This document shows, in pieces, positions 14,236-37,026 of a stretch of 37,107 nt of DNA (position 1 is its first letter; each line of letters starts with the position of its first letter). This DNA comes from an uncultured Lachnoclostridium sp. GTDB lineage: Bacteria; Bacillota; Clostridia; Lachnospirales; Lachnospiraceae. A program made the translations under genes and the position numbers. The notes beneath the pieces are model-generated. The model saw nothing but the letters and a program-made list of their open reading frames with translations, was not told the origin of the DNA and ran no database searches. The stretch spans positions 1 to 37,107 of the forward strand of contig CAMWXG010000009.1 of the NCBI GenBank assembly GCA_947178155.1, given 5' to 3'.

Positions 14236-14245
14236 GTAAATATGG

Positions 14246-14445: not shown

Positions 14446-16059
14446 ATGGCGAAAAAATTTAAGAAAGTACTTGGAGCGGCAGCAGTTGCATCTATGGTAT
14501 TTATGCTTGCTGCATGCGGTAATTCTGATTCGGGAGATGATGCCAAAACTGATGAAAACAAAGAAACCGAAACGAAAGACAAAGAGGCGGCAAAACCACC
14601 AGAAGATGCTGATTATACAGTTAATTATGATGGTATAAAAACAGCATCGATTAAAGCTGGTGTAAGTGTGCATGATCCATCTATTCTTCAGGTTGGAGAT
14701 ACATATTATATTTATGGTTCACATATGTCTGCTGCTAAATCAACAGATTTAAGAAACTGGACTAAACTTGGAGATGGGTATGATACTAATAATCCTGTAT
14801 ATGGTACATTTATGGAGAATGACCATATATTTGACTTTGCAGGCAATATGTTTTCTGCTATACCTACTGATAATGGTGGTACACATGTATGGGCACCTGA
14901 TATATACTATAATGAGGAAAAGCAGCTTTATTATATGTATTTTTGTACTTCATCAACATGGAATGCATCTAATTTATGTTATGCCACATCAAAATCTCCA
15001 GAAGGGCCTTTTGAATGGCAGGGAGCATTTATATATTCAGGATATAATGAAAATACACTTAAAAATACAGACATACTTGATTATGTGAGCAAAGAATATG
15101 CCCTTGAGAATTATATAAGCGGAGTGCAATATAATTTTAATGAATGTCCTAATGCAATAGATCCTACAATATTCCATGACAAAGATGGGAGATTATGGAT
15201 GGTATATGGTTCATGGTCAGGTGGAATACATCTTTTGGAAATTGATGAAAATACAGGCAAGTTAATACGTCCCGAAGCAGATGAAGAAAACGGGATTGAT
15301 CCATATTATGGAAAGCGTATTCTAGGTGGAGGACATACATCTATAGAAGCTCCATATATTTTATATGATGAGCCAAGCGGATATTATTATCTGTATGTGT
15401 CATATGGTAAACTTGATAGAAAGGGAGGCTATCAGATAAGAGTATTTCGTTCAGATAAGGTTGATGGAGATTATGTTGATATGAATGGCAATACTCCGTT
15501 GATAGGCAAGGGAAATCCTGCATATATGGGACTTAAGCTTTCAGGCAATTATTTACTGCCAAGTCTTGAAAAAGCATATATGGCTACAGGTCATAATTCA
15601 GCTTTTATAGACGAAAAAGATGGCAAGAGATATATAGTATATCATACACGCTTTGACGATGGTTCAGAATACCATGAGCCAAGAGTACATCAGTATCTTC
15701 TTAATGAAGATGCATGGCCATGTATGCTTCCATATGCTACAGATGGAGAAACTGTTTCAGAAACAGGCTATGCGGCTGATGAAGTTGCAGGTGAGTATTA
15801 TGTAATTAATCAGGGAATGGGTGTAGATGCCAAAATAGCAACTCCGTTTAAACTTATATTTACTGAAGATGGCGGAGTGTTTGGCAATAAGATTACAGGT
15901 ACATGGGAAGCTAAAGATAACAGTTATTATGTAACTATCAAATATGACAAAAATGAATACAAAGGAGTATTTTGCGCCATGAATGATGAAGCAGGTACAG
16001 CTGTTATGACATTTTCGGCAGTTGGTTCTAATGAGAGTATCTGGGGCGTTAAGTATTAA
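14446..16059 (+). CDS. GH43 arabinan endo-1,5-alpha-L-arabinosidase, lipoprotein
   Basis: Predicted cell-surface endo-arabinanase that cuts alpha-1,5-linked arabinan. The lipoprotein signal ends in LAAC with lipidated Cys24, followed by an acidic Lys/Glu linker to about residue 55. The five-blade propeller carries the GH43 triad: Asp77 (SVHDPSI), Asp239 (NAIDPTIF) and Glu301 (SIEAPYIL). HVWAPDIYYN, YGSWSGGIHLLEID and TGHNSAFIDEKDGKRYIVYHTRFDDGSEYHEPRVHQ match the secreted endo-arabinanase branch. A C-terminal beta domain (about 445-537) ends in ESIWGVKY, as in the larger homologue at 33979-37026. It is followed 16 bases later by a small membrane protein gene. Confidence 0.93.
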   Translation: MAKKFKKVLGAAAVASMVFMLAACGNSDSGDDAKTDENKETETKDKEAAKPPEDADYTVNYDGIKTASIKAGVSVHDPSILQVGDTYYIYGSHMSAAKSTDLRNWTKLGDGYDTNNPVYGTFMENDHIFDFAGNMFSAIPTDNGGTHVWAPDIYYNEEKQLYYMYFCTSSTWNASNLCYATSKSPEGPFEWQGAFIYSGYNENTLKNTDILDYVSKEYALENYISGVQYNFNECPNAIDPTIFHDKDGRLWMVYGSWSGGIHLLEIDENTGKLIRPEADEENGIDPYYGKRILGGGHTSIEAPYILYDEPSGYYYLYVSYGKLDRKGGYQIRVFRSDKVDGDYVDMNGNTPLIGKGNPAYMGLKLSGNYLLPSLEKAYMATGHNSAFIDEKDGKRYIVYHTRFDDGSEYHEPRVHQYLLNEDAWPCMLPYATDGETVSETGYAADEVAGEYYVINQGMGVDAKIATPFKLIFTEDGGVFGNKITGTWEAKDNSYYVTIKYDKNEYKGVFCAMNDEAGTAVMTFSAVGSNESIWGVKY

Positions 16060-16075
16060 TGGAGGAGATTATAAA

Positions 16076-16315: not shown

Positions 16316-16337
16316 GCTGGTGTTATTAGCTAAATAG

Positions 16338-16604: not shown

Positions 16605-16718
16605 ATGAGTAAATTTGTTACTTTTTACATCTTAACCAGAAATGGCTTTAGGGTGAACAGTAACATAAAGCTTAAAGGAGGATGTTATGCGGCACAAAAA
16701 AATTGGAGACAAGGTTAA
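16605..16718 (+). CDS. Possible leader peptide overlapping the binding-protein gene
   Basis: A 37-codon frame (starts MSKFVTFYILTRNGFRVNSN) with a good ribosome site (AAGGATGAGGAG, ending 4 bases before the ATG). It runs in another frame across the ribosome site and first 10 codons of the solute-binding protein gene and stops at 16718. No family is recognised. Its position would let its translation control that of the downstream gene. It may also be a chance frame. Confidence 0.35.
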   Translation: MSKFVTFYILTRNGFRVNSNIKLKGGCYAAQKNWRQG

Positions 16719-19695
16719 AAAAACCGTTGTGCTTGGCTTAATAGCAGCTCTTTCAGTCGGAAGTGTGGGGTATTGCGTAAAAGCTACCTCAAGTACCTCT
16801 GATACGACAGAGGGCGCAGAGCCGGAAAGCACACCGACAGCATCATCATCATCTAATGATGCTGAAGATTATTCCAGCGAACGTATTTCTACAAATTACA
16901 GTGTAATAAGTGAGAAGTACAAATTATCTGATTATACAGGCAGTACAGTTGAATGTTCTGCTGAAAGTATGATATCGGATAGTGATAAGTCAAAATTGAC
17001 AGAAGATACGCAGGGATATAGTAAAAGTTCAGAAGTAATTAGACTGAAAACTGGAAACAAAATAAGTCTTAAAGTAGATATTCCAGAAGATGGTCTATAT
17101 TTTTTGAGTCTTGATTACTTATCATATGATGTATCGATTCTTCCGGTGTCTATGAATATCAAGATTGATGGTGAATACCCGTTTTATGAGATGCGCAATC
17201 TTGAATTTAAGACTACATGGAAACTTAGTGATGAACCATCATATGACAGATATGACAATGAGGTGGTCACAGTTCCTGAGAAGGTAGTACAGTGGGAACA
17301 TGGCTACATAAAAGATTCAAGCTATCGTCATTCAGATCCGCTTAAACTTGAACTTACTAAGGGTGAACATACTTTGGAACTTGATGTAGATGAAGGTAAA
17401 TTCCTTTTAGGTAATTTGGAATTTGAAGCACCTTCGGTTGCTGATACTTACAGTGGTTCAGAAAAGGCAGACGGAGATGAGATTGTTGAGATTGAGGGTG
17501 AGAAATACAGTTATACCAATGACTCATCAATTCATGCTGTAGCAGAATATGACACAAGTCTTTCGCCATATGAGGTAAAGGACACAGTTTTAAACACCAT
17601 TGATTCTTCATCATTTAGCGTAGCAGGACAGAAAATTACATATCAATTTGATGCACCATCATCAGGCAACTACTATATTGCAATGAATTATCGTCAGTCT
17701 GAAAAAACAGATTTTCCGGTATTTGTTGATATAGAAGTAGATGGCAAGATACCAAATGAAGCGTTTCGCTCATATGGTATGGCATATACAACTAAGTATA
17801 AGACATCAACTTTGGAAGATGAAGACGGCAATAAGCTCAGTGTTTATCTTGATGAAGGTACACATACAATTTCATATACATTAAGCATGGATCCTATATG
17901 CTATATCATGGAAGAAATTGATGTGGTTATGTCAGAGGTCAATGACCTTGCACTTGAAATTACAAAGGTTGCAGGAACTAATGCGGATAAGTATCGTGAC
18001 CTTAAACTTTCAAGATATATCCCAGGGGTTGATGATATACTTCATGGATATGCTGACAGACTTAAAGAACTTGAAAAGAGCGCCATTAAGTGGAGCGACA
18101 GTGATAAAGGTGTTGCGGTAATGTCATCAATGCTGATTGCAGCAAACCAGCTTCAAAGCTTAGGTGATAATCCTGATGAGATACCTTATCGTGTAGCAGA
18201 GCTTACAACAAGTACAAACTCAGTAAACCATTATCTTGCACAGACAATAGATAATCTTATCGCGAATGATCTTGCAATAGACCGTTTATGGATATATCAG
18301 GAGGGAGCAGACCTTCCTAAAAAACCGGGTATCTTTAAGTCAATGGCAATGAATGTTCAGAGGTTTGTTGCATCATTTACTGAACAGGCATATTCGACAA
18401 AGAATACAGATAAAGATCATATACAGGTATGGGTAAACCGTTCAAATCAGTATGTGCAGATTATGCAAAAGATGATTGATGAGGACTTTACACCTGAAAC
18501 AGGTATAGAAGTAGATATAAGTATCATGCCTGACCAGTATAAGCTTGTATTGGCAAACTCAGCAGGAAATGCGCCAGATGTTGCAACCGGTATTAACTAT
18601 ACTATTCCATATGAGCTGGCTATAAGAGGGGCTCTTGTGGATATGACAAAATATAGTGATTTTAAAAAGGCAGCAGAAGATTATGAGCCTGGTTTCTTTA
18701 TGACAGGTACAATTGGTGACAGTGTTTACTCAATGCCTGAAACAATGAATTTCTGGGTATTGTTCTATCGTAAAGATGTTATGGAAAAACTTGGTATTCC
18801 AATACCTAATACAATGGAAGAAGTAATAGATATGCTTCCTGACCTTCAAATGAGGGGGCTTAACTTCTACTATCCGACAGCAGGAATGATTTTAATGAGG
18901 AATTTCCATGGTACTACACCACTTATTGTGCAAAACGGAGGTTCACTATACAATCCTACAGCAGCAGAGGGCGTGGCACTTGGAAACGAGTCAACAGTAA
19001 ATGGTTTTACAACACTTACAGACCTCTTTACAATTTATAACTTGCCTGTAAATATTGATAACTTCTATCAGCATTTTAGAAATGGTGATATGCCGATAGG
19101 AATTGCAGATTATGCCACATATAATATGCTTACAAATGCGGCACCTGAACTTGAAGGTTCATGGGAGATAGCTCTTATACCTGGCACAGAGCAGAGTGAT
19201 GGAAGTATCGATCGCTCCGTATGTGGATGTGCAGAGAGTAGTGTTATATTTAAGAGTGACAACAAAAGAGAAGAAAAGGCATGGGAATTTGTAAAATGGT
19301 GGTCTTCAAACGAGACACAGGCAAAATTTGGTCAGACAATACAGATTTCGTACGGAAGTGAATATATCTGGCCTACAGCAAATATGAAAGCCTTTCAACA
19401 GCTTCCGCTTGAGGTTGATTCTAAGAATGTTATCGCTGAAACAGCTAAGAATGTTGTAGATGTTCCAAGAGTTCCCGGAACTTATCTGCTTGAGCGTGAG
19501 ATGAGCAATACCTTTAATGATATTACTGTTAACGGCAGTAATGAACAGACTAGGATTGACAAGGCTGTGAAGTCCATTAACCATGAGTTTGACAGGAAAC
19601 TTGAGGAGTTTGGTTATAATAACAGCGATGGTTCTGTTGTCAAGGATTATAATATTCCTACGCTGAAGAGTGTAACTGAGTTGCTTGGAAGATAG
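16687..19695 (+). CDS. Large family-1 solute-binding protein with N-terminal beta-sandwich modules
   Basis: 1002 residues, about twice the usual length. Order: basic N terminus and export helix (about 10-33); Ser/Thr/Glu linker (35-65); two related beta-sandwich modules resembling carbohydrate-binding domains (about 70-250, with [11 protein letters not shown], and about 280-420, with [12 protein letters not shown]); a helical spacer (about 425-575); then a family-1 sugar-binding protein from [11 protein letters not shown] (579) onward, with [27 protein letters not shown] and [20 protein letters not shown]. The signal region lacks a normal lipobox: the only nearby cysteine follows Tyr (GSVGYC). 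It precedes a permease pair. Predicted ligand: arabinan-derived oligosaccharides, from context. Confidence 0.85.
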
Positions 19696-19751
19696 AGCTT
19701 AGGCGGCTTAGTGATGTTAAGTTCAGCTTAAACGGAGGGATGAGAAAAAAT

Positions 19752-20678
19752 ATGGCAAATAGTGAAAAGAAAACAAAAAAGAATAATATCAGGAAGCGTG
19801 AGAATTCCAATTATAATGGATATGGCTTCATGGCACCATATGCATTGGTATTTATTATATTCATACTGGTGCCTGTAATAGTGGCAGCAATCCTGTCATT
19901 TACAAACTTTAATGCAATTCAGTGGCCGTCTTTTGTAGGTTTTCTGAATTACATTACACTGATTACCAGTGATGAAGTATTTATGCAGCATGTATTGCCA
20001 AATACTGTAGTATATGCTGTGGTTGTAGGTATTGGAGGATATATGTTATCTTTCGTGCTTGCATGGGCACTGTGTAATCTTACAAAACCATTTAGAACTG
20101 TATTTGCCCTTATACTTTATTCACCAAGTATGACGGCAGGTGTAGCTATGACGGTTTTGTGGAAGGTTATTTTCTCAGGTGACCAGACAGGTCTTTTGAA
20201 TAGCTGGCTTATGAGTATTGGTATTATAAATGAGCCTATAATATGGCTGGTAAGCGAAAAATACCTTCTTACAATAGTAATAGTAATCGGTCTGTGGTCA
20301 TCAATGGGTATCGGCTTCTTATCAATGATAGCAGGTATTCTTAACTCAGATGAAGAGTTATATGAGGCAGCAGCGATTGATGGTATTAAGAATCGTTTTC
20401 AGGAGATGATTTACATAACAATCCCACAGATGAAGCCACAGATGTTGTTTGCTGCGGTTATGGCTGTTGTTAATGCTTTTCAGAACGGCCTTATATCAAC
20501 ACAGCTTACAGGAAATCCTTCACCGGGATATGCGGCACAGCTTATTGTAAACCATATAGAGGATTATGGTTTCTTAAGATACGAAATGGGATATGCAGCA
20601 ACAGTTTCAGTAGTATTACTGTTGATTGTACAGATATTCTCAAAGGGTGCTAATGCACTTCTTACTGAAAAAGATTAA
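19752..20678 (+). CDS. Sugar ABC transporter permease (MalF/UgpA type), first pair
   Basis: Membrane component of a carbohydrate importer. Six predicted membrane helices; first helix [19 protein letters not shown]. The ATPase-contact EAA loop reads [28 protein letters not shown]. The ATG at 19752 is chosen because GGAGGG (19734-19739) directly abuts the ATG at 19740, leaving no spacing. Pairs with the next gene. No ATPase gene is present in the window, so a shared MsmX/MsmK-type ATPase is inferred. Confidence 0.93.
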
Positions 20679-20696
20679 AAGGAGGGAAGCTTAAAT

Positions 20697-21566
20697 ATGG
20701 CATATAAAGGAAAAAGGATGAATCCTCAGCATTTTGAAATAGGTCAATTAAAGATTATAGCAATTATGCTTCCGTTGGTTATTATGATGGCGATACCAAT
20801 AGTATTTATTGCAAACCATGCATTTAAGCCAATGGATGAGCTCTTTGCGTTTCCACCGACCTTCTTTGTTCGGAATGCTACATTTGAGAACTTTACAAAG
20901 CTCATTAAGTTCAGCCGTACTTCAGGTGTACCGCTTAGCCGATACGTATTTAACAGTGTTATTGTTACAGTGCTTACGGTAGGATTGTCATTGCTCTTTA
21001 CAACTTTTGCAGCATTTGCGCTTTCAAAGTTAAAGTTTAAAGGACGTGATATGATGATGACAATTAATCAGTTTGCTCTTATGTTTGTGCCAACTGCCGT
21101 ACTTATTCCAAGATATCTTGTTATCTGTAAGTTCGGACTTATTGACAGCATTTGGGCACATATCCTTCCGCTTTTGGCGTATCCGGTAGCCCTATTTCTT
21201 GTAAAACAGTTCGTTGAACAGGTGCCTGATGCATTGATTGAGGCAGCATATATAGACGGAGCTACGGACTTGACGGTGTATTTTAAGATTATCATACCTA
21301 TGATTAAACCCGCAATAGCAACAGCAGCAATTCTTGTATTCCAGCAGGTATGGGTGAATGTAGAAACTTCTAACTACTATGTAAATGATGATAGTATGAA
21401 AACATTGACATTCTATATGAACTCGCTGGTAAATGCAAATAATACTGTGTCTGGTCAGGGTATGGCGGCAGCAGCTTCATTGATTTTGTTCCTGCCAAAT
21501 CTTATATTATTTATAGTTCTTCAGAATAATGTCATGAATACAATGGCACATTCTGGTATTAAGTAG
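20697..21566 (+). CDS. Carbohydrate ABC transporter permease (MalG type), first pair
   Basis: 289 residues, six predicted helices, and the EAA loop ALIEAAYIDGATDLTVYFKIIIPMIKPAI. GGAGGGA precedes the ATG; the gap to the upstream permease is 18 bases. The C terminus ends MNTMAHSGIK, as is usual for MalG-type partners. Forms a heterodimer with the upstream permease by family precedent. Confidence 0.94.
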   Translation: MAYKGKRMNPQHFEIGQLKIIAIMLPLVIMMAIPIVFIANHAFKPMDELFAFPPTFFVRNATFENFTKLIKFSRTSGVPLSRYVFNSVIVTVLTVGLSLLFTTFAAFALSKLKFKGRDMMMTINQFALMFVPTAVLIPRYLVICKFGLIDSIWAHILPLLAYPVALFLVKQFVEQVPDALIEAAYIDGATDLTVYFKIIIPMIKPAIATAAILVFQQVWVNVETSNYYVNDDSMKTLTFYMNSLVNANNTVSGQGMAAAASLILFLPNLILFIVLQNNVMNTMAHSGIK

Positions 21567-21607
21567 TAGCTGGTAAACATTGCAAAGAGGAGAAGGAATA
21601 AGGCGTT

Positions 21608-23677
21608 ATGAAAATAAGTGAAAAGTTTATAAAACTTGTGGCTACGTTTCTGACTGCAATTGTTCTGATTTCCGGCATAAGTCCGGCAATAGCCTCAGCA
21701 GAAACACCATATCGTACATTTACAAAGGACGGATATGGAAGGACGCTGGAGACACAGACAGCCTATCTGGCACATTCTACAATCATAAAATTTGGAGAAG
21801 AATTCTTAAAAAATCCAAATGATATGTATATTACAAAAGATGGAACAATGTATGTGGCAGATACCGGAAATGGACGAATTGTGGTAGGCAAAGCATCAGG
21901 TGAATTGATTAAAGTAATTGGTGAGGGAACTCTTGTCTCACCAAGAGGTGTATTTGTTACAGAGGAGAATAAGCATGTATATGTGGCAGATAGAGATGCT
22001 GCCGCCGTATTTGAATTTGATGAGGATGGCAATGTAGTTAATAAGTATACAAAGCCAGACAGTCCATTGTATGGTGAGGCGTTGGAGTTTATGCCGGTTA
22101 AGCTTGTTGTAAATGATGCAGGCATAATGTATATCGTGTGTGAGTCAAATACAAATGGTATAGTTGAAATTGCACCAGATAACGGTGGCACATTCCTTGG
22201 ATACTTCGGAACAAACTTTGCATCAGTAAGCCTGCAGCAGATTATATTCCGTGCAATACTTACTGATGAGCAGCGTGCAAAGCAGAGAAGTAATATACCA
22301 TCTACACCGGATAATCTTGCAATAGATGCAAAAGGGCTTATCTATACAGTTACACGTGGTGAAGAATATAATACGCTCAAAAGACTTAATATTGCAGGTA
22401 ACAATCTTATAAAAAGCATAACATCAGCATCAGCATATGATGAAACTCCTGCAGCAGTTGCAGCAGGAAACCATGATAATGTGTATGTAGCTTCAAGTGA
22501 AGGTTATATATATGAGTTTAATAATCAGGGCGAGCTTCTGTTTGTATTTGGTGCATCAGATGATGGTACACAGCGTGTAGGTTTGTCTACACAGGTTTCA
22601 AGCATACAGGTTGATGCCAGTGATAATATTTATATACTTGATGCTGACAAACGTCAGATACAGGTATATCAGCCTTCAGAATTTACGAAGCTTCTTCATA
22701 ATGCATTGTATCTTTACTCAAAGGGACGTTATACAGAGAGTAAAGAGCCGCTTAGAAAAGTCCTTGAGATGAATAGTATGTTTGACTATGCAAATAAAGC
22801 TATGGGGCGCGCATATTTCCAAGAAGAAAATTATGATACAGCGCTTAAATATGCAAGACTTGCCAAGGACTGGGAAGGTTATTCAGATGCATTTTGGGAA
22901 ATTAGAAATGAATGGCTTAAAAAGAATATTGTAGCTGCATTGTTATTCATCATAGCCTTGTATATTATTATTAAAGCAGTTAAGTATGCAGATAAAAGAA
23001 AAGGCATATTAAATAAGCCTAGAGCAGCATGGGACAGCGTAAAGGATAAAGGTGTGCTTTCAAATGTAAGATATGCAAAGTATTTCATGAGACATCCAAT
23101 GGATGGTTCATACGGCATAGCGAGGGAAGGAAGGGCATCATGGAGTGCACCATCTATAATATTGCTCATATTTACGATAGAATATGTTATTAATAAATAT
23201 TTGTGTGGTTTCCTTCAAAAAGATATACGTGAGGGAAGATATGAGATTCCATCTGATATAGGTACAATAGTTATTGCGATAGTAGCTGTTACATTGTGTA
23301 ATTATCTTGTATGTACAATAAACGAAGGTGAGGGTACAATTAAAAAGATATATACATATTTCTGTTACAGTCTTATGCCATATGTAATGCTTACTCCTGT
23401 GGTATTTATACTATCACATGTTGTTACAATTAATGAGGAGTTCCTTATCACACTTGTAGAAGTAGTAATGTATGGCTGGATATTAGTTCTTATGATACTT
23501 GGAATTAAAGATGTAAATAACTATACTCCTAAGGAGACATTTAAAGTTATATGCCTTACATTGTTTACAATTTTGATTGTAGCACTTTTAATATTTATCA
23601 TATATGTACTCTGGGCTCAGGTATTCGAGTTCATAAGTGCGGTTGTCGGAGAGGTGGTGTATAGGCTTGGTTATTAA
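21608..23677 (+). CDS. NHL-repeat, TPR and Yip1-domain membrane protein
   Basis: An unusual 689-residue fusion. A cleavable signal peptide ends near residue 31 (IASA/ET). NHL-type beta-propeller blades follow (about 55-355: NDMYITKDGTMYVADTGNGRIV, SPRGVFVTEENKHVYVADRDAAAV, DASDNIYILDADKRQIQVY). Then come a TPR-like helical pair (about 358-435, YSKGRYTESKEPLRKVLEMN), a membrane helix (about 439-459), a cytoplasmic basic stretch, and a five-helix Yip1-type domain (about 510-689, with YFCYSLMPYVMLTPVVF). The propeller and TPR are therefore outside, the Yip1 part in the membrane. It sits between two permease pairs and overlaps the next gene by 11 bases. No enzymatic residues seen; a scaffold or sensor role is inferred. 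Confidence 0.85.
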   Translation: MKISEKFIKLVATFLTAIVLISGISPAIASAETPYRTFTKDGYGRTLETQTAYLAHSTIIKFGEEFLKNPNDMYITKDGTMYVADTGNGRIVVGKASGELIKVIGEGTLVSPRGVFVTEENKHVYVADRDAAAVFEFDEDGNVVNKYTKPDSPLYGEALEFMPVKLVVNDAGIMYIVCESNTNGIVEIAPDNGGTFLGYFGTNFASVSLQQIIFRAILTDEQRAKQRSNIPSTPDNLAIDAKGLIYTVTRGEEYNTLKRLNIAGNNLIKSITSASAYDETPAAVAAGNHDNVYVASSEGYIYEFNNQGELLFVFGASDDGTQRVGLSTQVSSIQVDASDNIYILDADKRQIQVYQPSEFTKLLHNALYLYSKGRYTESKEPLRKVLEMNSMFDYANKAMGRAYFQEENYDTALKYARLAKDWEGYSDAFWEIRNEWLKKNIVAALLFIIALYIIIKAVKYADKRKGILNKPRAAWDSVKDKGVLSNVRYAKYFMRHPMDGSYGIAREGRASWSAPSIILLIFTIEYVINKYLCGFLQKDIREGRYEIPSDIGTIVIAIVAVTLCNYLVCTINEGEGTIKKIYTYFCYSLMPYVMLTPVVFILSHVVTINEEFLITLVEVVMYGWILVLMILGIKDVNNYTPKETFKVICLTLFTILIVALLIFIIYVLWAQVFEFISAVVGEVVYRLGY

Positions 23678-26015
23678 AAAATTAAAGAAAATGCTTGCTC
23701 TGGCTACTGCAATAGTTCTTGCTGTTGGCGTAGTTCCAAGTGTCTCGCAGTCGACAGAAGTAGATACAGAGGGTACTGCCACAGAAGGTGCTGAAGGCAC
23801 AGAAGAGGGCGGCGAAGGTGAAGAACAGGAAGAACAAAATACAGTACTTGAAGATGGTGAAGTAGTACAGGATGGAGCTGTTGGTAAGATTGACAAGGAC
23901 AAATGGATTACTATAGATGATTATGAACTTGTGGCTGAGAATGATGTATATAAGATGTACCTTTATGAGCCTAGGCTTTCAATAATTCTTGAGGAAAAAG
24001 CTACAGGAAAGTATATTGAGTCTACTCTTAGTGATGAGAAAGATGATGGTAATAGTAATTCAGTTTGGAATGCTTATATGAAGTCAGGTATTGTCATTAC
24101 TGCTATCATTGGTACAATTAATACATATCAGGTTGACCTTATAACTACACCGGTTACAATAGATGTTACAAAGAATGACAATGGTTTTGCGGCTAAGTTG
24201 TATTACAGTGAGTATCAGTTCGGGCTTACAGTCAATGTAACGCTTGATGGCAGTGATCTTGTAGTAAGTATACCTGATGACTCTATAGTTGAAGAAAAAG
24301 AGGGAACATATATTTCAACTGTAAGTTTATTCCCATTTATGGGATATTCATTCCTTGATGATGAAGAGGGATACATGCTTATACCTGATGGAAATGGTGC
24401 ATTAATAAATCTTGACAATAAAGAGGGACGTTATACAACAGGTTTTTCGCAGATGATTTATGGAAAAGACATCGGATTTGATGACGCAACTGCAAAAGAT
24501 TACCTCTGGGGCGATGCAAATGATGGCATTGATATGTCAAGAAATGCAAATAAAGTAATTGCACCAATTTTTGGTATGGCACATACAAAAAGTGAGACAG
24601 GATATATTGCAGTAGTTGAAGAAGGTGATAAACGTGCTTATATAGAAGCGCAGCCAAATGGGGTTATGGTAAATTATAACCGCTGTTTTGCAAGGTTTCT
24701 TCTTCGTGACATATATGTACAGCCACTGAATAATTCTAGTTCAGGTACAATGAAAAAAGCAGAAGAAGACCGTACACATATGGATATGCAGGTGCGTTAT
24801 ATGCTTCTTTCAGGGGATAAAGTTAATTATTCTGAAATGGCAACAAAATATCGTGAATATCTTCTTAACAAAGGGCTTATATCAGAAAAGGACAGCAGTT
24901 ATAATACAAGGGTTGATTTCCTGGGAACAGACAGAGAGGAATTCCTGTTTGGAACAAGAGCTGTTACTGTGACAACAATAGAAAATATTGAGGAGATATT
25001 TAAAGAGCTTCAGGGCAATGGAGTGTCAAGTCTTGTATCTGTGTATAGAGGCTGGCAGAAGGGCGGTTTGTACAATGTTCCTATTACAAAATATAAGGCT
25101 GATAGACATATTGGCGGAACTTCAAAGCTTACAAGCCTGATAAAAGATGCAGAAAGTAAGGATTATCATGTATATCTTTATAATGATGCGCTTCGCCTTA
25201 ATCCATCAACTAATAGAATGACATTTGATATGATAAAGCAGGTTAATAAAAGGAATTTTGAGGAATCAATATGGGCACAGGTATATAAAAGTTTCTACTT
25301 CCTCACACCTGAAAAGACATCTAAGAATTTGAAAAAGTTCATAGATTCGTATACCAAAGATGGAGTTTCAAATCTTGCTGTATCAGGAATAAGTGATACG
25401 ACATATTCATACAGCTACAAAGGCGATTTTTATACAAGATGCACAACTTCAGATAAGTATGTGGAACTCATAAATGAAGTAGATGAAGGTGTAAATCTTA
25501 TGCTTGAAGAGCCGGCATCATATCTCTGGAAAAATGCAGATGCATTTCTTGATATGCCGCTTGGTTCATCTGATTACATGTATGTAAATGAGGAGATACC
25601 ATTCCTTTCAATGGTACTTAAGGGTATAATGCCTATGTATTCAGATTATGTTAATTTTGAAGCTAACAAGCAGGAATTTTTATTGCAAATGGTTGAGGCT
25701 GGTGTATATCCTTCATTCTATTTGACATATGAAAATTCATCAGATTTGCTTTATACCAATTCATCTAACTTATTCAGCACAGAGTATTCTACATATAAAG
25801 ATACAGTTGCTGATTATGATAAACAGCTTAGGGCGGTAAACGCAAAGACAGAAGGAGCATTTATAGTAAAACATGAAAAATTGGACAACGGGGTTACTAT
25901 TGTGACTTACGACAATGGCGTAAAAATATACGTCAATTATACTGACAAATCCCAGATAGCAGATGGTACACCTGTTGAAGGAATGTCTTATAAGGTAGGT
26001 GAGTCAAATGAGTGA
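23667..26015 (+). CDS. DUF5696-like secreted protein, possible divergent glycosidase fold
   Basis: About 782 residues. The TTG start at 23667 is chosen because it begins a good signal peptide (VIKKLKKMLALATAIVLAVGVVPSVS) and GGAGAGGTGG lies upstream; it overlaps the previous gene by 11 bases. An acidic linker (TEVDTEG to EDGEV) is followed by an N-terminal beta-rich half (FMGYSFLDDEEGYMLIPDGNGALINLDNKEG) and an alpha/beta half (EIFKELQGNGVSSLVSVYRGWQKGGLYN, HVYLYNDALRLNP, NLMLEEPASYLW) that reads like a TIM barrel, ending in a small beta domain (GVTIVTYDNGVKIYVNY). No lipobox. The resemblance to DUF5696 proteins and to retaining glycosidase architecture is by eye; activity is unproven. Confidence 0.75.
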   Translation: MVIKKLKKMLALATAIVLAVGVVPSVSQSTEVDTEGTATEGAEGTEEGGEGEEQEEQNTVLEDGEVVQDGAVGKIDKDKWITIDDYELVAENDVYKMYLYEPRLSIILEEKATGKYIESTLSDEKDDGNSNSVWNAYMKSGIVITAIIGTINTYQVDLITTPVTIDVTKNDNGFAAKLYYSEYQFGLTVNVTLDGSDLVVSIPDDSIVEEKEGTYISTVSLFPFMGYSFLDDEEGYMLIPDGNGALINLDNKEGRYTTGFSQMIYGKDIGFDDATAKDYLWGDANDGIDMSRNANKVIAPIFGMAHTKSETGYIAVVEEGDKRAYIEAQPNGVMVNYNRCFARFLLRDIYVQPLNNSSSGTMKKAEEDRTHMDMQVRYMLLSGDKVNYSEMATKYREYLLNKGLISEKDSSYNTRVDFLGTDREEFLFGTRAVTVTTIENIEEIFKELQGNGVSSLVSVYRGWQKGGLYNVPITKYKADRHIGGTSKLTSLIKDAESKDYHVYLYNDALRLNPSTNRMTFDMIKQVNKRNFEESIWAQVYKSFYFLTPEKTSKNLKKFIDSYTKDGVSNLAVSGISDTTYSYSYKGDFYTRCTTSDKYVELINEVDEGVNLMLEEPASYLWKNADAFLDMPLGSSDYMYVNEEIPFLSMVLKGIMPMYSDYVNFEANKQEFLLQMVEAGVYPSFYLTYENSSDLLYTNSSNLFSTEYSTYKDTVADYDKQLRAVNAKTEGAFIVKHEKLDNGVTIVTYDNGVKIYVNYTDKSQIADGTPVEGMSYKVGESNE

Positions 26016-27045
26016 AAAAATGAGTAAAGAAGAAAAGAAGCAGGCAAGAAAGAACAGAAAGAAGATGAAAGCGGGAAGGCTTGCCAAAAGAGAAGCGATA
26101 ACAGGTCTGTTGTTCATTACGCCATGGATTATAGGAGCATTAATGTTCCTTGCATATCCGCTTATAACATCATTCAGGTATGCGCTTAATAATATACGTA
26201 TCACACCTCTGGGAATGAATTTTGAGTATGTCGGATATGAGAATTTTACACAGGTACTTTTGTCTGATGCAGAATTTCCTATGCAGCTTGCAGATTATGT
26301 AGTTTCGACAATTATATCAGTCCCTATAATAGTAGTATTTGCCTTGATTATTGCCATTATGTTAAATCAGAATATTAAAGGCAAGGGATTTTTCAGACTG
26401 ATATTCTTCCTTCCGGTTATAATTGTCAGTGGACCTATACTTGGGATGCTGAATGAAGAGGGAGCAGGAAGTATCACAGCTATTGATACACAAGCTATTA
26501 CAACTTCGATACAAGGGGTTTTGCCATCTTCACTTGCGGACCCGATATCTAGTATATTTGAGAATATGGTAACAATACTTTGGTATTCAGGAGTACAGAT
26601 ACTTATATTCCTTTCAAGTTTGCAGAAGATGGATCGTTCAATGTTTGAAGCTGCAAAGATTGATGGCGGTTCAGGCTGGGAATGTTTCTGGAAGATTACA
26701 CTTCCAAATATTAAGCCTATGATATTATTAAATATTGTATATACAATCGTATTTATATCTAATAATGAGCAAAATACAATTATTGAACTTATTAAGACAT
26801 CAATGTTTGCAGGTACACAGGAGAAAGGTTATGGCTATGCGTCAGCGATGGCATGGATGTATTCATTGATAGTTGTAGTAATTGTAATCTTATTTGCAGT
26901 ATTGTTTATGGCAAAGAAAGATGTATATGAGAAGCAGGTTAAGAAGGCAAAGAAAGCTCATAAGAAAGAGCTTCGCCAGCTTAAGAAGATAGAAAGGAGG
27001 AGTGCAAGAAATGCCAAAAAGAACGCAAGAGCAGGCAGAGTCTAA
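26008..27045 (+). CDS. Sugar ABC transporter permease (MalF/UgpA type), second pair
   Basis: Second MalF-type subunit. The EAA loop reads MFEAAKIDGGSGWECFWKITLPNIKPM. It has a long basic N-terminal head (EKKQARKNRKKMKAGRLAKR) and an even more basic C-terminal tail of about 40 residues, both cytoplasmic. The ATG at 26008 overlaps the stop of the DUF5696-like gene by 8 bases, a translational-coupling arrangement; a GTG at 25999 is less likely. Its last 35 bases overlap the next permease. Confidence 0.93.
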   Translation: MSEKMSKEEKKQARKNRKKMKAGRLAKREAITGLLFITPWIIGALMFLAYPLITSFRYALNNIRITPLGMNFEYVGYENFTQVLLSDAEFPMQLADYVVSTIISVPIIVVFALIIAIMLNQNIKGKGFFRLIFFLPVIIVSGPILGMLNEEGAGSITAIDTQAITTSIQGVLPSSLADPISSIFENMVTILWYSGVQILIFLSSLQKMDRSMFEAAKIDGGSGWECFWKITLPNIKPMILLNIVYTIVFISNNEQNTIIELIKTSMFAGTQEKGYGYASAMAWMYSLIVVVIVILFAVLFMAKKDVYEKQVKKAKKAHKKELRQLKKIERRSARNAKKNARAGRV

Positions 27046-28048
27046 GGTGAGAGACGATGGCTCAGTACAGATAGTTACACCGTCAGGTGAGATTCTTATA
27101 AAAGATAAAAAGCAGATTACAAAAGACAAAATAAGAAAATTTTTGCTTGGCACTAAAGAACAGGAAGGTTTTCTTAAGGTATTCATTATATATGCACTTT
27201 TGATATGTATAGGTTTTATATATATCTACCCTATTCTGCATATGGTCAGCACAAGCTTTATGACACTTGATGACCTTTTAGACCAGTCAATTAACTGGAT
27301 ACCAAGCTCCTTCAATCTTGATAATTATAAGCAGGCAGCTACAAGTATGGATTTCTGGGGTTCATTTGGAAAGAGTATTATTCTTGCCGGTGTTCCTACA
27401 ATATGTAATTTAATATCATGTTCAGTAATAGGCTATGGGCTTGCACGTTTTGAGTTCCCAGGTAAGAAAGTAGTACTTGGTATCATTATCTTTACATTTA
27501 TTTTACCTAGTCAGATTACGATGATACCTACATATGTACTTTATTCAAATATGGGTATACTTGGAACAATATGGGCGTTTATTCTTCCATCGCTTCTTGG
27601 ACAGGGAATTAATGCACCGATATTTATACTTATATTCTGGCAGTTCTTTAGGCAGGTGCCTAAGGTGCTTATTGAGGCGGCACAAATTGATGGCGCAGGA
27701 TTTTGGAAGTCATTTTACAGAATATCAATTCCGTCAGCAGCACCAGCGATTATTACAGTATCACTTTTCTCATTTGTATGGTACTGGAATGAGTCATATC
27801 TTACACAGATGTATGTAGCAGGTGTAACTGTTAAATCAGGCTGGACTTCACTTATAATACAGCTTGACCAGTTTGCAACTAATTATAGCAAATATGCAAC
27901 TACAGCGACAAATGCTGTTACAAACATAAATGAATCTATCAATATGTCAGGTACTATGCTTAGTATTCTGCCACTGCTTATTATGTACTTTGTATTACAG
28001 AGATACTTCGTTGAAAGTATTGACCGTTCAGGTATTACAGGTGAATAA
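27011..28048 (+). CDS. Carbohydrate ABC transporter permease (MalG type), second pair
   Basis: EAA loop VLIEAAQIDGAGFWKSFYRISIPSAAPAI and six predicted helices. It carries an unusual N-terminal extension of about 55 charged residues (PKRTQEQAESKVRDDGSVQIVTPSGE) before the first helix. ATG 27011 is preferred because AGGAGG lies about 9 bases upstream, while the GTG at 27002 abuts it. It overlaps the upstream permease by 35 bases, so its ribosome site lies inside the codons for that protein's basic tail. A terminator follows 75 bases after the stop. Confidence 0.93.
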   Translation: MPKRTQEQAESKVRDDGSVQIVTPSGEILIKDKKQITKDKIRKFLLGTKEQEGFLKVFIIYALLICIGFIYIYPILHMVSTSFMTLDDLLDQSINWIPSSFNLDNYKQAATSMDFWGSFGKSIILAGVPTICNLISCSVIGYGLARFEFPGKKVVLGIIIFTFILPSQITMIPTYVLYSNMGILGTIWAFILPSLLGQGINAPIFILIFWQFFRQVPKVLIEAAQIDGAGFWKSFYRISIPSAAPAIITVSLFSFVWYWNESYLTQMYVAGVTVKSGWTSLIIQLDQFATNYSKYATTATNAVTNINESINMSGTMLSILPLLIMYFVLQRYFVESIDRSGITGE

Positions 28049-28123
28049 AAAATTATTGTTTATACCTATACAGAATATTTTATAAGCAGAAATTATTAAT
28101 CCATTATATTTTATAGCATATTA

Positions 28124-28164: not shown

Positions 28165-28185
28165 ATAAATATTTACAAAAAAGTG

Positions 28186-28214
28186 TGGAAATTGCAAGCT
28201 AAACGTGCTATAAT
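28186..28214 (+). promoter_or_regulatory. Promoter of the lipoprotein binding-protein gene
   Basis: TGGAAA (28186-28191), 17-base spacer, then TGC-TATAAT: an extended -10 with a perfect hexamer at 28209-28214. Predicted start about 28221. The next gene is thus expressed separately from the transporter operon. Confidence 0.7.
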
Positions 28215-28266
28215 TGACTATATTGAGGAGAGGTCTATAGTAAAAATATCTAAAAGGAGGAAGACT

Positions 28267-29850
28267 ATGAGAAAAAAATTATTAGTATTGACACTTGCTA
28301 TGTCTATGGTAGTAGGACTTGTTGGATGTGGCAATAAAGGTAACGGCAATGGAGGAGGCGGCGGTGGTGACAGTGCTGCAGCTGTTTCTGGTGAGACAGA
28401 GGCTAAGGAAATTAATGGAATTACTTATAATAGGGCTACTGACTTGACAGATAAAAATATTGAACTTACATATTTCCATTTTGATCAAAATGAGACTGTT
28501 GAGTATCTTGCAGATCGCTTTGAGGAGATTTATCCTAATATTACAGTAAATCCTGTTTATGAGAATGTTGGTACTTATAATGATACATTGACAACACTTA
28601 TATCAAATGGTGAATCACCTGATATTATTATGTTTTCAGATGCTGATGCTGCTTTAAGTAATTTCTGGGTAGCAGATATTTCAGCGTATTATGATTCTGA
28701 TCCTGAGACAAAAGAATTAGCATCTACTATAAATGAGTGCGGACTTGGATGCTATTCTACAAGTAAGAGATATGCGGTGCCTATTAAATTCTTCCCAGGT
28801 GTAATGTATATTGATTTAAATGTTTTAAAGAAGCTTAATGTTGAAGCACCTTCAAGAAACTGGACATGGGCTGATATGATTCAGTTAATAAAGGATTGTA
28901 CTGTTAAAGATTCGTCAGATGGTATGCCATATTATGGATGTGGTTTCTATAACAGACTTGATTCATATTATGGTATTGCAGCAGCTCAGACTATTCAGGG
29001 TGAGTTCGGATTTGATGGAACGGATTTTGATTTAGGTGTATGGGCTGTAGGTGAGCAGGAATTTGCAGGACTTAAGCAGGGTGGATATATTGCGCCTTCT
29101 TCACAGACAGTTGAAATGGAAAACTGGATGGGTGACTGGGAGCAATGGTGCGGCAATTCAGGTCATGTTGCACTCTTTACAGAGGCATTCTGGACTTTCC
29201 AGAATACATGGAATACACCAACATATCATGAACAGTATGATCTTGATATTGTTCCTTATGTAGTTCCTGCAGTAAGCGAAGAAGATGCAGCAAAAGACCA
29301 TCATACTATTGCTACTATTGACTTTGGTGGAATTACAACAGCATGCCAGTATCCACGTGAAGCATATGAGCTTCTTAAGTTTATGAGCTTTGGTAAAGAT
29401 GGTTGGAAGACAAGGATTGAGCTTTATAATGATGAAACTCAGGTAAATGCTTCAGGTATTGCACTTAAGTATGATGTTATGCCAGCTCCTATTACAACTG
29501 ATTCAGAAATATGGGATGGATATATTGAGATGTACTGCAAGGGAATGGACGAGACGCATGTAGGTTATTGGAGAGAATTTTTTGAGAGTTGTTTACAGCC
29601 TATTCCATATGGCTGGGTTAGCATAGCCGGATATTGGAACTATTGTGATCAGTATTTCAATAAACTTGGTATTCATGACCTTGTAGACAGTGGTAAGGGC
29701 AAAGCAGCCGATTATGCAGATGAAGCTACGGAGAAAGCTAATTATTATCATGCAAAGGCGATGCTTGATTACTTTGGCAAGAGTGGATATGATGTACTTT
29801 CTGATGAAGAGATTGAGAAGTATGAAACAATGGAAAAAGAAAATTCATAA
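28267..29850 (+). CDS. Family-1 sugar-binding lipoprotein
   Basis: 527 residues. The lipoprotein signal ends LVGC with lipidated Cys21, then a Gly/Asn linker (NKGNGNGGGGGGDS) to the binding fold: IELTYFHFDQNETVEYLADRFEEIYPNITVNPVY, NGESPDIIMFSDADAALSNFWVADIS, and a Trp-rich ligand region (EMENWMGDWEQWCGN, FWTFQNTW) fit for sugar stacking. ATG 28267 has AAAGGAGG before it. It has its own promoter and terminator, immediately after the second permease pair and before the cytoplasmic arabinosidases, so it probably feeds one of the two permease pairs. Predicted ligand by context: arabino-oligosaccharides. Confidence 0.92.
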   Translation: MRKKLLVLTLAMSMVVGLVGCGNKGNGNGGGGGGDSAAAVSGETEAKEINGITYNRATDLTDKNIELTYFHFDQNETVEYLADRFEEIYPNITVNPVYENVGTYNDTLTTLISNGESPDIIMFSDADAALSNFWVADISAYYDSDPETKELASTINECGLGCYSTSKRYAVPIKFFPGVMYIDLNVLKKLNVEAPSRNWTWADMIQLIKDCTVKDSSDGMPYYGCGFYNRLDSYYGIAAAQTIQGEFGFDGTDFDLGVWAVGEQEFAGLKQGGYIAPSSQTVEMENWMGDWEQWCGNSGHVALFTEAFWTFQNTWNTPTYHEQYDLDIVPYVVPAVSEEDAAKDHHTIATIDFGGITTACQYPREAYELLKFMSFGKDGWKTRIELYNDETQVNASGIALKYDVMPAPITTDSEIWDGYIEMYCKGMDETHVGYWREFFESCLQPIPYGWVSIAGYWNYCDQYFNKLGIHDLVDSGKGKAADYADEATEKANYYHAKAMLDYFGKSGYDVLSDEEIEKYETMEKENS

Positions 29851-30044: not shown

Positions 30045-30073
30045 TTGCATATGCCACAATGGTATGGTATAAT
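30045..30073 (+). promoter_or_regulatory. Promoter of the cytoplasmic arabinosidase operon
   Basis: TTGCAT (30045-30050), 17-base spacer, TGG-TATAAT: an extended -10 with a perfect hexamer at 30068-30073. Predicted start about 30080, 40 bases before the GH43 ATG. Confidence 0.78.
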
Positions 30074-30119
30074 TTATCAAAATTTAAAGTATTTTACGTC
30101 TAAGAAAGGAAACTTTATT

Positions 30120-31076
30120 ATGTCAGCAGAAAAAGAACTGAAATATAATGAACCATGGATTTTGCAACGTGCAGATCCATTTGTATGTTTTAAAGATGGC
30201 TGGTACTATTTTACAGCATCTATTCCAAGTTATGATTGTATTGCTATTCGCAGGGCTAAGACTTTAGCAGGACTTGCTGATGCAGAGGAGAAGATTATAT
30301 GGAAAAAGCATGAGAGCGGTATTATGAGTGAGCATATATGGGCACCGGAGATGCATTTCCTTTTTGGTAAATGGTATGTATATTTTGCAGGCGGTGATAA
30401 AGATGATATATGGGAAATACGTCCATATGTGTTAGAGTGTCAAGGTGCAGATCCATACAATGATGAGTGGGTTGAAAAGGGAAAAATGGGTTGCGCAGAT
30501 GATGATGAATTTTCATTTCGGGCTTTTTCTCTTGATGCTACTATTTTTGAAAATAAAGGAAAGTATTATTATGTGTGGGCTGAAAAGGTTGGTGTAGGCA
30601 AGCAGATTTCAAATCTTTATATTGGCGAGATGGAGTCTGGTTATAAGCTTAAGACAGTTCAGGTTATGCTTACAACTCCTGATTATGACTGGGAACGTTA
30701 TGGTTTCTGGGTGAATGAGGGACCTGCTGTAATTAAACATAATGGGAAAATATTCCTTACATATTCAGCTAGTGATACAGGTGTAAATTACTGTATGGGT
30801 ATGCTTACAGCTGACGAGAATTCTGATATGCTTGATCCGCTTTCATGGAAGAAGGAAAGATATCCTGTACTTAAGACAGATTATGACCTTGAAATATATG
30901 GTCCGGGGCATAATTCGTTTACTATTGATGAAGAAGGCAATGATGTTATGGTATATCATGCCCGTAAGGAAGCTGAAATAGTGGGAGATCCTCTTTACAA
31001 TCCGAATCGTCATGCGATGCTTATGCGGATTAAATGGGACGAAGAGGGCAGACCTGTATTTTCATATAAAAATTAA
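30120..31076 (+). CDS. Cytoplasmic GH43 arabinofuranosidase (exo-acting, GH43_26-like)
   Basis: 318 residues without signal peptide. The GH43 triad is visible: Asp19 (QRADPFV), Asp139 (FSLDATIF) and Glu200 (WVNEGPAV). The pattern RADPFVCFKDGWYYFTASIPSYDCIAIRRAKTLAGL resembles the subfamily that trims arabinose from the end of alpha-1,5-arabino-oligosaccharides; the subfamily is judged by eye. ATG 30120 is chosen over an upstream in-frame ATG because AAGAAAGGAA precedes it and the family motif begins soon after. It lies 18 bases before abfA, in one operon, so oligosaccharides are expected to be finished inside the cell. Confidence 0.88.
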   Translation: MSAEKELKYNEPWILQRADPFVCFKDGWYYFTASIPSYDCIAIRRAKTLAGLADAEEKIIWKKHESGIMSEHIWAPEMHFLFGKWYVYFAGGDKDDIWEIRPYVLECQGADPYNDEWVEKGKMGCADDDEFSFRAFSLDATIFENKGKYYYVWAEKVGVGKQISNLYIGEMESGYKLKTVQVMLTTPDYDWERYGFWVNEGPAVIKHNGKIFLTYSASDTGVNYCMGMLTADENSDMLDPLSWKKERYPVLKTDYDLEIYGPGHNSFTIDEEGNDVMVYHARKEAEIVGDPLYNPNRHAMLMRIKWDEEGRPVFSYKN

Positions 31077-31094
31077 CAATAATTGGAGGGTATA

Positions 31095-32672
31095 ATGGCA
31101 AAATTATATATTAATGAAGAGAATGAGCAGTGCAAGATAGAACCAGAAGTATATGGACATTTTTCAGAGCATCTTGGCAGATGTATTTATGAGGGTATTT
31201 ATGTAGGTGAAGATTCTGATATACCTAATGTAAATGGTATGAGAGTTGATGTTGTAGAGGCGCTTAAAGAACTTAAAGTACCTATGCTTCGCTGGCCGGG
31301 TGGCTGCTTTGCTGATGAATATCATTGGAAAGATGGTATAGGACCTAAAGAGAACAGGAAAAAGATGATTAATACCCATTGGGGTGGTGTTGTTGAAGAT
31401 AATAGCTTTGGTACACATGAGTATATGGAGCTTTGCCGTCAACTTGGATGTAAGACATATGTAAATGGTAATCTTGGAAGCGGTACTGTTCAGGAAATGT
31501 CTGAATGGGTAGAATATATGACATTTAATGGGGTATCGCCGATGGCAGATTTAAGAAAAGAAAATGGACATGCTGAGCCATGGACAGTTGATTTCTTTGG
31601 AGTTGGCAACGAAAACTGGGGATGTGGCGGTAATATGACACCAGAACATTATGCCAATGAATATCGCAGATATCAAACATATGTAAGAAATTATGATTCT
31701 AAGAAGATGATTAAAAAGGTCTGCTGTGGTCCTAATATAGATGATTATGAGTGGACAGAAGGCGTTATGAAGACTGTTTTTTATAAGACGAATAACGGTG
31801 TTGGTGTTGATCCGGAAGGTGATGCTGCCGCTGCTGAAATTGTTCTTGAGGATGAAGAAGAAGTACCAGAGAGCAGCATGATAGATTATCTGTCACTTCA
31901 CTATTATGTTCATCCTGAAGGCTGGAAAATTAAGGGAAGCTCAACGGATTTTGATGGTGAAGTATGGTATAAGACGCTTTATAAGGCTTTGTTTATGGAT
32001 ACACTCATTAAACGTCATGGTACAATTATGGACAAATATGATCCTGATAAAGAGGTTGGCCTGTGCGTAGATGAGTGGGGAACATGGTTTAAGAATGAAC
32101 CAGGAACTAACCCAGGTTTCCTTTATCAGCAAAATACAGTGCGTGATGCGCTTGTAGCGGGTATTACACTTAATATATTTAATAAACATGCTGATAGGGT
32201 AAAGATAGCAGCGCTTGCGCAGATGGTTAATGTTTTACAGGCTGTACTTTTGACAGAGGGCGAGAAGATGATAAAGACACCTACTTATCATGTAATGCAT
32301 ATGTATCGTCATCATCAGGGGGCTATGCTTCTTGAAAGTGCGCTTACAGGGGTAGATGAGATAGGTATAAACAAATGGAAAGTGCCAAAGATTACAGAAT
32401 CTGTATCAAAGGGAGAAGATGGTATTATTACAATTACACTTAACAATCTTTCCATAGAAGCAGCAGAAGACGTTGATATTCAGTTTGCAGACAAGGGCTA
32501 TAAGGTAGTTGAGGCTCGCATAGTTACTGACACTGATATGCATGCTCATAATACATTTGATGCGCCTGAAACAGTTACAGAGAAGGATTTTGACGCATAT
32601 AAAGAGGAGCAGGACAAAATAGTTGCAAGTCTTCCTGCAAATAGTGTTGTAGAGTTAAGGGTTAAGAAGTAA
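31095..32672 (+). CDS. abfA: GH51 alpha-L-arabinofuranosidase
   Basis: Cytoplasmic retaining arabinofuranosidase of about 525 residues, normal for GH51. The acid/base is Glu173 in [13 protein letters not shown] and the nucleophile Glu327 in [44 protein letters not shown] and [16 protein letters not shown] are strong family marks. The C-terminal beta domain (about 420-525) is as expected. GGAGGG lies 7 bases before the ATG. No signal peptide, so it works on imported oligosaccharides with the upstream GH43. Confidence 0.96.
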
Positions 32673-36900: not shown

Positions 36901-37026
36901 AGCAGTAAATGTTTCAACAGAAGCCGCACTGGCGGTACTGCTGTCAACTGCGCTGCTCATTGCAGGTGTAACAGCAAGCGCTGCAGTAAGCAGATAAGAA
37001 ATTAGTTGTTTAAATTTTTTCTTCAT
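33979..37026 (-). CDS. Secreted multidomain GH43 endo-arabinanase with LamG-like and Big2 domains
   Basis: 1015 residues. A signal peptide (about 1-35, ASA/AS region) is followed by a GH43 propeller with Asp51 (MLHDPSI), Asp232 (NAIDPTIF) and Glu298 (SGEGPYIL), plus SPGHNSAFIDEDGQRYLFYHTRFDNSGEYFEMRVHQ. The arabinanase C-terminal beta domain ends TIWGVNKK (about 540). Then come an Ig-like segment (about 550-630), a LamG/concanavalin-like domain (about 640-830: SGFTVNMWVKF, WNLLSYTVDMNGIHTYANGNLL, DTIYIGGG) and two Lys-rich Big2 Ig-like domains (about 845-925 and 930-1015, ending ATITAKYKGFKVSVKVTVKK). No LPXTG or lipobox, so it is released or held by the basic repeats. TAGGAGGT precedes the ATG. 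Confidence 0.93.
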   Translation of the reverse strand: MKKKFKQLISYLLTAALAVTPAMSSAVDSSTASAASVETFTAAPKHVMLHDPSITEAKDGTYYIFGTHITAAKSDDLVNWDYFSNGYTPTNNAIFGDLDTNLSKAFDWAGGIKELRTEYRVWAPDVFYNKDYVNADGSTGAYMMYFCTSSTAWRSVIAYGVSQNIEGPYTMVDTLIYSGFNNQEITDINPYNYVETNIQELLANGTINEEAKDNWFTRNGSFNTSYCPNAIDPTIFYDKDGKLWMTYGSWSGGIYVIEVDPATGKVKYPGTSSVTADGLVVDAYFGTRIGGGYTQSGEGPYILYDAETDYYYLYFTYEYLDSISGYNMRLFRSKNPDGPYLDAAGNNAALSGNVNHNNIGIKVMGNYYFSTLQRGYKSPGHNSAFIDEDGQRYLFYHTRFDNSGEYFEMRVHQQFINEAGWPVTAVFENKGDVISATGYKTEDIIGEYEFINHGTQSDKTNVIQPKNITLNADGTISGDISGTWKEKEGSYHMEAVIDGVTYSGVFFAQHDESAQCNKVMTFTAIGTDNKTIWGVNKKMFNSSDDDMLDRAVSDLDNSKFILSKTVSDIELPDKAYLADIKWTSDNTAVIKDDGKVTRPETATEVTLTATISYGSSQITKPYKTTVMPANMLPDYKYDFESVNGTSVAGSGSKTDAATLTGNASVSNETFVGNVLTINNNNSQKDKNYLALPSDMFKNIDESGFTVNMWVKFDSSTSEQVTLFEATNSSAVNGVPATAMYAGGHALMASNDILCRSAYKLMPNADEWNLLSYTVDMNGIHTYANGNLLTSLEDNLYDAANPDVFSLIDTIYIGGGILELDGFKEASFDNIEFYSVALDADTFKNKYNAEKGNYPNFKIESSRNTIYSGGDKANTANVTVSGDENSGYTVDYSSSDSSIATVNSSGKVTAKKAGKVTITANITVNGETIKLTKNITVKKAYLKFSKKQTSIKVGKTATFKVTGYGLKTNSIKWSSSKKAVLTIKNNGKATAKKAGKATITAKYKGFKVSVKVTVKK

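Follow-up and report, generated by a model that had tools for sequence, protein, structure and literature searches.

Importers of the CUT1 type, such as MalFG, UgpAE and the MsmX-powered systems of Gram-positive bacteria, combine SBP_bac_1 binding proteins with PF00528 permeases, in which the EAA loop is the part that docks the ATPase, the latter being encoded elsewhere. In Bacteroidota, SusCD systems join surface glycan-binding proteins to an importer in the outer membrane, and Gram-positive polysaccharide utilization loci (gpPULs) are defined by a degrading enzyme, a transporter and a regulator in one locus; the import of large plant glycans by Gram-positive bacteria of gut, rumen and soil is less understood than the Sus-type systems of Bacteroidota. 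Here we describe a gene cassette, SBP1-MalF1-MalG1-NHL/TPR-Yip1-DUF5696-MalF2-MalG2, encoded in a 37,107-nucleotide stretch of DNA (the window) from an uncultured Lachnoclostridium sp. (GenBank assembly GCA_947178155.1, contig CAMWXG010000009.1, positions 1 to 37,107 of the forward strand) and, as sequence comparison demonstrates, kept together across Bacillota.

Like the CUT1 importers, the cassette possesses SBP_bac_1 proteins and PF00528 permeases with EAA loops, and its ATPase is presumably encoded elsewhere; unlike them, it unites NHL-TPR, Yip1 and DUF5696 with two permease pairs that are orthologously distinct, and its SBP1 of about 1000 aa carries two extra N-terminal domains. The likeness to SusCD is functional only, as the latter sits in an outer membrane, expected to be absent in hosts of this kind. 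With regard to the gpPUL definition, enzymes and importers are present at the window locus, and a winged-helix regulator is located on the opposite strand. Described gpPULs unite hydrolases with one or more ATP-binding cassette (ABC) importers, Ros-5 and Ros-9 being given “2 × ABC”, and the main text of their source contains no occurrence of Yip1 (PMC5320581). A precedent for Yip1 is YknW of the YknWXYZ system of Bacillus, presented as a Yip1-family assembly partner of an ABC transporter with an extracellular partner (PMC4887032). YknWXYZ works in export and includes a membrane fusion protein, whereas the cassette comprises importers, a propeller-TPR part and a glycoside hydrolase (GH)-like protein; neither a membrane fusion protein nor a MacB-like permease of the YknWXYZ type was among the families found in the cassette open reading frames scanned at E ≤ 0.01.

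The full-text search, which covered open-licence PMC papers and so does not establish absence in print, returned none on DUF5696, none pairing these cassette families and none with both Caldicellulosiruptor and Yip1; titles and abstracts showed nothing on the cassette. The seven open-licence papers combining “YIP1 family protein” with an ABC transporter, judging from the matches listed, were those on YknWXYZ, bacteriocin reports and unrelated ones. Among papers on similar loci, the accessible text of PMC6484121 contains no occurrence of YIP1, and that of PMC10318527, in which Yip1 was not searched for, contains neither “unknown function” nor “hypothetical”.

Organization and conservation of the cassette

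In the window, all cassette genes are on the plus strand. The gene of the 689-aa NHL-TPR-Yip1 protein (21608..23677) is followed by the DUF5696 gene (23667..26015), whose best start, TTG at 23667, lies 11 bases within the preceding gene and has a good probable ribosome-binding site (23648..23657) before it. Both genes lie between the permease pairs MalF1 (19740..20678) and MalG1 (20697..21566), spanning 19740-21566, and MalF2 (26008..27045) and MalG2 (27002..28048), spanning 26008-28048. SBP1 (1002 aa, 16687..19695) is located upstream, while SBP2 (28183..29850), a lipoprotein-like solute-binding protein whose true start is probably internal to the open reading frame, is located downstream together with GH43 and GH51 genes. 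The overlap, the TTG start and the flanking permease pairs had been reported by the first-pass annotation of the window, and all of them were confirmed.

For comparison, 62 close loci from public records were annotated with the window proteins, and 100 distant stretches from 58 genomes in 20 family-level groups were annotated by means of profiles derived from those close loci; neighbour counts are limited to loci whose contig reaches far enough. The NHL-TPR-Yip1 gene was immediately upstream of DUF5696 in 54/54 close and 92/93 distant loci; downstream, MalF2 was present in 53/53 and 94/96, and MalG2 in 53/53 and 95/96, respectively. A complete SBP1-MalF1-MalG1 set was found upstream in 48/48 close and 66/83 distant loci, and SBP1 relatives occurred in all 11 genomes drawn from these family-level groups. 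The two MalF2 misses (L213, L217) are open reading frames with early starts, and in the MalG2 miss (L221) this gene sits behind a 1189-aa open reading frame matching MalF2. The sole NHL-TPR-Yip1 miss (L134, G040:C16) holds DUF5696, MalF2 and MalG2, while L255 (G040:C8) carries the other half, i.e., SBP1, MalF1, MalG1, NHL-TPR and Yip1 (L134/L255 entry 9479-16433). The same gene order in named isolates, among them Butyribacter intestini (L047) and Eubacterium sp. MSJ-13 (L033), led to the rejection of an assembly artefact in the window.

Conversely, the genome samples searched with PF18952, the profile of DUF5696, were also searched with that of NHL-TPR-Yip1; short partial PF18952 matches, among them true GH129 and GH13 proteins, did not enter the DUF5696 locus counts, and two longer ones (G130:C86 and the partial G114:C402) were left out of the locus set. 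Full or near-full DUF5696 was present in 24 of 146 genomes sampled in the order and in 37 of 398 in the phylum, with G000 and G005 positive in both samples. NHL-TPR-Yip1 was detected in 26 of the 146 (E ≤ 1e-10), namely in exactly the 24 DUF5696 genomes and in two weak NHL-only ones (G020, G139; near E 1e-11), which were dropped, and in 38 of the 398 (E ≤ 1e-20), namely in exactly the 37 DUF5696 genomes and in G385, dropped as a 284-aa NHL fragment running off the contig end. SBP1 (E ≤ 1e-50) was likewise found in 26 of the 146 genomes, including all 24 with DUF5696; the two extra genomes, G091 and G100, have SBP1 but none of the other parts and are read as cut loci, since the former has its SBP1-MalF1-MalG1 set, and the latter its SBP1 gene, running up to the end of a contig. 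A chance neighbourhood is thus rejected by the near-invariant gene order and the genome-by-genome co-occurrence. The conserved linkage of both families with transporters, on which the first-pass annotation had staked its proposal of an accessory pair on an importer, withstood the test, being nearly invariant for the permeases; the unit, however, is larger than a pair: at least eight genes make up the cassette, SBP1 and both permease pairs among them.

Permeases and candidate ATPases

All four permeases matched PF00528 and possess an EAA-type loop, as is typical of CUT1 permeases, and both SBP1 and SBP2 scored above the SBP_bac_1 cut-off. Trees included one in every six close loci together with the distant ones; the outgroup consisted of further CUT1-like permeases from the same genome and of a few permeases from distant loci that lie outside the cassette. 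Each permease formed its own clade: MalF1 (81/81, support 1.0), MalG1 (84/84, support 1.0, plus the downstream MalG1 of L201 as one extra), MalF2 (100/100) and MalG2 (100/100, support 0.99). Pairwise distances of the seven components correlated in the 66 complete distant loci (Spearman 0.70-0.89), and for the four component pairs tested none of 500 label shuffles reached the observed correlation. Elsewhere in the genome, one UgpC/MsmX-type ATPase gene scored above the cut-off of 432 bits, and a second candidate, with 295.9 bits, fell below it.

The NHL-TPR-Yip1 protein

The protein begins with a hydrophobic signal (residues 3-21), followed by the propeller (37-356), TPR-like helices (358-419), a transmembrane segment (440-458) and the Yip1 domain (494-662; 23087..23593, plus strand). 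The latter matched PF04893 with 43.6 bits against a cut-off of 28.6, and five hydrophobic segments lie past residue 500, in agreement with the earlier description of a propeller, TPR and a five-helix Yip1 domain in one protein. Its sequence places the predicted propeller and TPR-like helices between the export signal and the membrane segment. Among the matches listed by VIA-align for the structural model none was to Yip1, which is uninformative about this part.

The single-protein architecture holds for the window and for all 54 evaluable close loci, but of the 92 distant loci with an NHL-TPR/Yip1 pair, 49 encode the two parts in separate adjacent genes and 41 as a fusion, two (L145, L217) being unclear. 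They are split in Butyrivibrio fibrisolvens pNP243 (L248), whereas a Paenibacillus cellulosilyticus plasmid (L249) has a single gene of 719-codon size annotated as a YIP1 family protein, with ugpC directly 5' of SBP1. Immediately upstream of the pNP243 cassette, at 1394-4926, a histidine kinase and a response regulator are encoded.

DUF5696, a GH129-like protein

The window DUF5696 protein, with a hydrophobic signal and an acidic linker, matched PF18952 with 594.7 bits (curated cut-off 25.6) over profile positions 3-612 of 612. PF18952 was its sole family at E ≤ 0.01, with no match to Pfam GH129 (PF11308), and a PDB sequence search with the DUF5696 profile returned two small chains only (E 0.025 and 0.032), one of them named a de novo design. 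The model aligned by VIA-align over 560-582 residues of GH129-type chains, so the exported protein with a barrel-like alpha/beta half, as the second gene product had been described, acquires a known fold, that of the GH129 type; its closest known counterparts are GH129 (NagBb), the GH129-like ZgGH129 and GH101. It differs from these in that most members are without the catalytic Asp/Glu pair, and DUF5696 forms the separate sequence family PF18952 and is tied to a transporter cassette.

The second catalytic residue of NagBb is Glu478, and the motif places of both residues were counted on an alignment. The catalytic columns fall near residues 584 and 624 of the window DUF5696 protein when numbering begins at GTG 23637, with the register at the Asp (nucleophile) column uncertain by one residue. 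Gly stands at the nucleophile position in the window protein and in all 60 close sequences, and at the acid/base position the window protein has Glu. The Asp+Glu pair was found in none of the 60 close and in five of the 98 distant sequences, by which a canonical GH129 enzyme was rejected; under a looser count (±1 residue, either acid at both positions) the numbers were 0/60 and 18/98. No acidic position is invariant across the 98 distant members. Since the catalytic pair is not kept in most sequences and an invariant acid is absent, we read DUF5696 as mostly a pseudoenzyme, of which some members may be active; it looks like a sugar-holding protein of enzyme descent. According to PMC5698469, Asp435 belongs to the catalytic pair of NagBb and corresponds to Asp486 of ZgGH129, an enzyme that is active although it has just one residue of this pair in common with NagBb.

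Alignment A1 contained the window and 48 of the 62 close loci; A2 comprised 48 and A6 31, in each case with the window added. The near-invariant E5, R6 and C8 of alignment A1 were dropped as support, their codons being 5' of the TTG start and overlapping the end of the Yip1 gene. As a separate observation, proteins of about 625 aa in L026-L031 are true GH129 (NagBb-like) relatives bridging the DUF5696, DUF6259, GH101 and GH129 profiles.

SBP1 and the flanking genes

SBP1 has an N-terminal hydrophobic segment, with no clear lipobox seen by eye, two domains within residues 90-265 and 266-430, homologous to each other (hhalign E 3e-12), and an SBP domain at 592-885. Nothing in its N-terminal half exceeded Pfam cut-offs, and all PDB matches start at residue 568 or beyond, leaving this half unmatched; residues 90-430 are a possible new carbohydrate-binding module.

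The gene after MalG2, scanned in 77 of 91 cases in distant loci, was SBP_bac_1 in 46 of the 77 and varied elsewhere, with many hydrolases. Among 94 of 316 flanking open reading frames scanned (26 loci), 28 matched SBP_bac_1; within the best 25 of 81 families, GH42, GH10, GH43, GH26, GH3, GH5, GH67, GH31, GH127, GH30 and pectate lyase appeared one to three times each among the matches listed. As the flanking families differ from locus to locus, the core is constant while the enzymes vary. In the Paenibacillus cellulosilyticus plasmid, the cassette is followed (18186-28833) by LLM-class flavin-dependent oxidoreductases, two further binding proteins and reductases in place of hydrolases, which hints at an unusual substrate, perhaps a non-glycan or a modified sugar.

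At the window locus, the hydrolase set, with its GH43 and GH51 families, suggests arabinan as the glycan handled. Upstream, a GH43 with a GH43_C domain (14446..16059, plus strand; profile match) has a lipoprotein-like N-terminus (LAACGN, read by eye). Downstream on the same strand are a probably cytoplasmic GH43 (30045..31076) and an alpha-L-arabinofuranosidase of the GH51 kind (31083..32672), both with no export signal seen. The winged-helix regulator (about 33042-33956, minus strand), which possibly controls the arabinan locus, adjoins a GH43 with an export signal and, by profile matches, GH43_C, LamG and Big_2 domains (33979..37026, minus strand); this is a probable extracellular arabinanase, which we infer to be part of the sugar locus. 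Outside the latter, the window contains an ordinary-looking helicase gene (DEAD_2, Helicase_C_2) beside an Mrr_cat nuclease gene (8600-11701) and a similarly ordinary-looking DUF4130 gene beside a radical SAM gene (406-2848).

Proposed function and alternative explanations

The first-pass observation is thus confirmed and extended from a pair to a cassette, and its interpretation is partly supported. We somewhat favour the reading in which a composite carbohydrate importer has NHL-TPR-Yip1 and DUF5696 at its core, as a scaffold and a receptor linking two importers, the physical linkage being presumed. Yip1 would pack in the membrane against the permeases, and the propeller-TPR part outside would gather DUF5696 and both binding proteins over the permeases. 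Pieces of glycan set free at the cell surface, in this case from arabinan by GH43 enzymes, would be retained by DUF5696 and by the N-terminal domain pair of SBP1, handed to the binding-protein domains and imported by both permease pairs, which would share one UgpC/MsmX-type ATPase with its gene elsewhere; in the cytoplasm, GH43 and GH51 enzymes would then cleave them. Specificity would be changed by swapping SBP2 and the hydrolases, the core remaining unchanged. A generic holding and uptake machine fits better than a specific enzyme, because the core rarely separates yet adjoins many hydrolase families.

Several points weigh against this composite importer. The two importers could act side by side without contact, and the Yip1 precedent, YknW, belongs to an exporter. 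The cassette of G040 is in two halves on separate contigs, and 17 of the 83 distant loci have no complete SBP1-MalF1-MalG1 directly upstream, so that strict stoichiometry is not required; six of these 17 (L192, L201, L205, L213, L214, L215) have a full-size SBP1 downstream, L160 being left out of this count for its weak match (20 bits, 456 aa). The MalF2 clade has a support of just 0.66 with a small outgroup, and the component-distance correlations are partly due to shared species history. Only 39-48 of the 66 loci had the same nearest relative by DUF5696 as by the remaining parts, and reassortment of some parts is therefore possible. Finally, the acid/base Glu is kept in the window protein and in 59 of the 60 close sequences, and D278, E687, D251 and D427 are acidic in 81-87 of the 98 distant members; since these acids are retained, DUF5696 possibly performs another kind of catalysis.

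The best surviving alternative, in our view an unlikely one, takes DUF5696 for a surface glycosidase that is active through other catalytic residues, belongs to a new family related to GH129/GH101 and is anchored or matured by NHL-TPR-Yip1, the rest being an ordinary two-importer Gram-positive polysaccharide locus. The GH129 fold, the activity of ZgGH129 with a single shared residue, the four widely acidic positions, the nucleophile-position Asp in 42 of the 98 distant members, the acids near both positions in the loose count and the hydrolases in many flanks speak for it. Against it are the absence of an invariant acidic position and the Gly throughout the window clade; moreover, no single DUF5696 reaction fits easily, because the neighbouring hydrolases span many families.

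It is improbable that the two proteins are a flux or substrate sensor reporting transporter occupancy, rather than an assembly scaffold: the window NHL-TPR-Yip1 protein ends in membrane helices, and its scan gave neither a kinase nor a cyclase nor any further output domain, constant kinase neighbours not having been specifically searched. A frozen operon order without a shared machine, in which accessory genes hitchhike with two independent CUT1 importers, would agree with the two binding protein-permease sets, each permease with its EAA-type loop, and with the SBP1 set moved downstream in six distant loci, yet this is very improbable given that, as far as the contigs reach, the accessory genes accompany the cassette permeases in distant loci of 58 genomes from 20 family-level groups, with few exceptions, and that NHL-TPR-Yip1, DUF5696 and SBP1 co-occur genome by genome.

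Returning to the composite importer, the cassette falls within CUT1 import but stands a fair chance of being a machine of its own. The nearly fixed core of eight to nine genes with exchangeable hydrolases and binding proteins makes it a candidate general uptake machine and gives DUF5696 a functional context. A bolder version, which we regard as possible but doubtful, is a Gram-positive counterpart of SusCD, in which the NHL-TPR-Yip1 scaffold and an enzyme-derived glycan receptor would bind two different CUT1 importers in one surface complex. Such a complex, if real, would let the cell hold and draw in glycan fragments, long or branched, that are beyond the capacity of a single importer.
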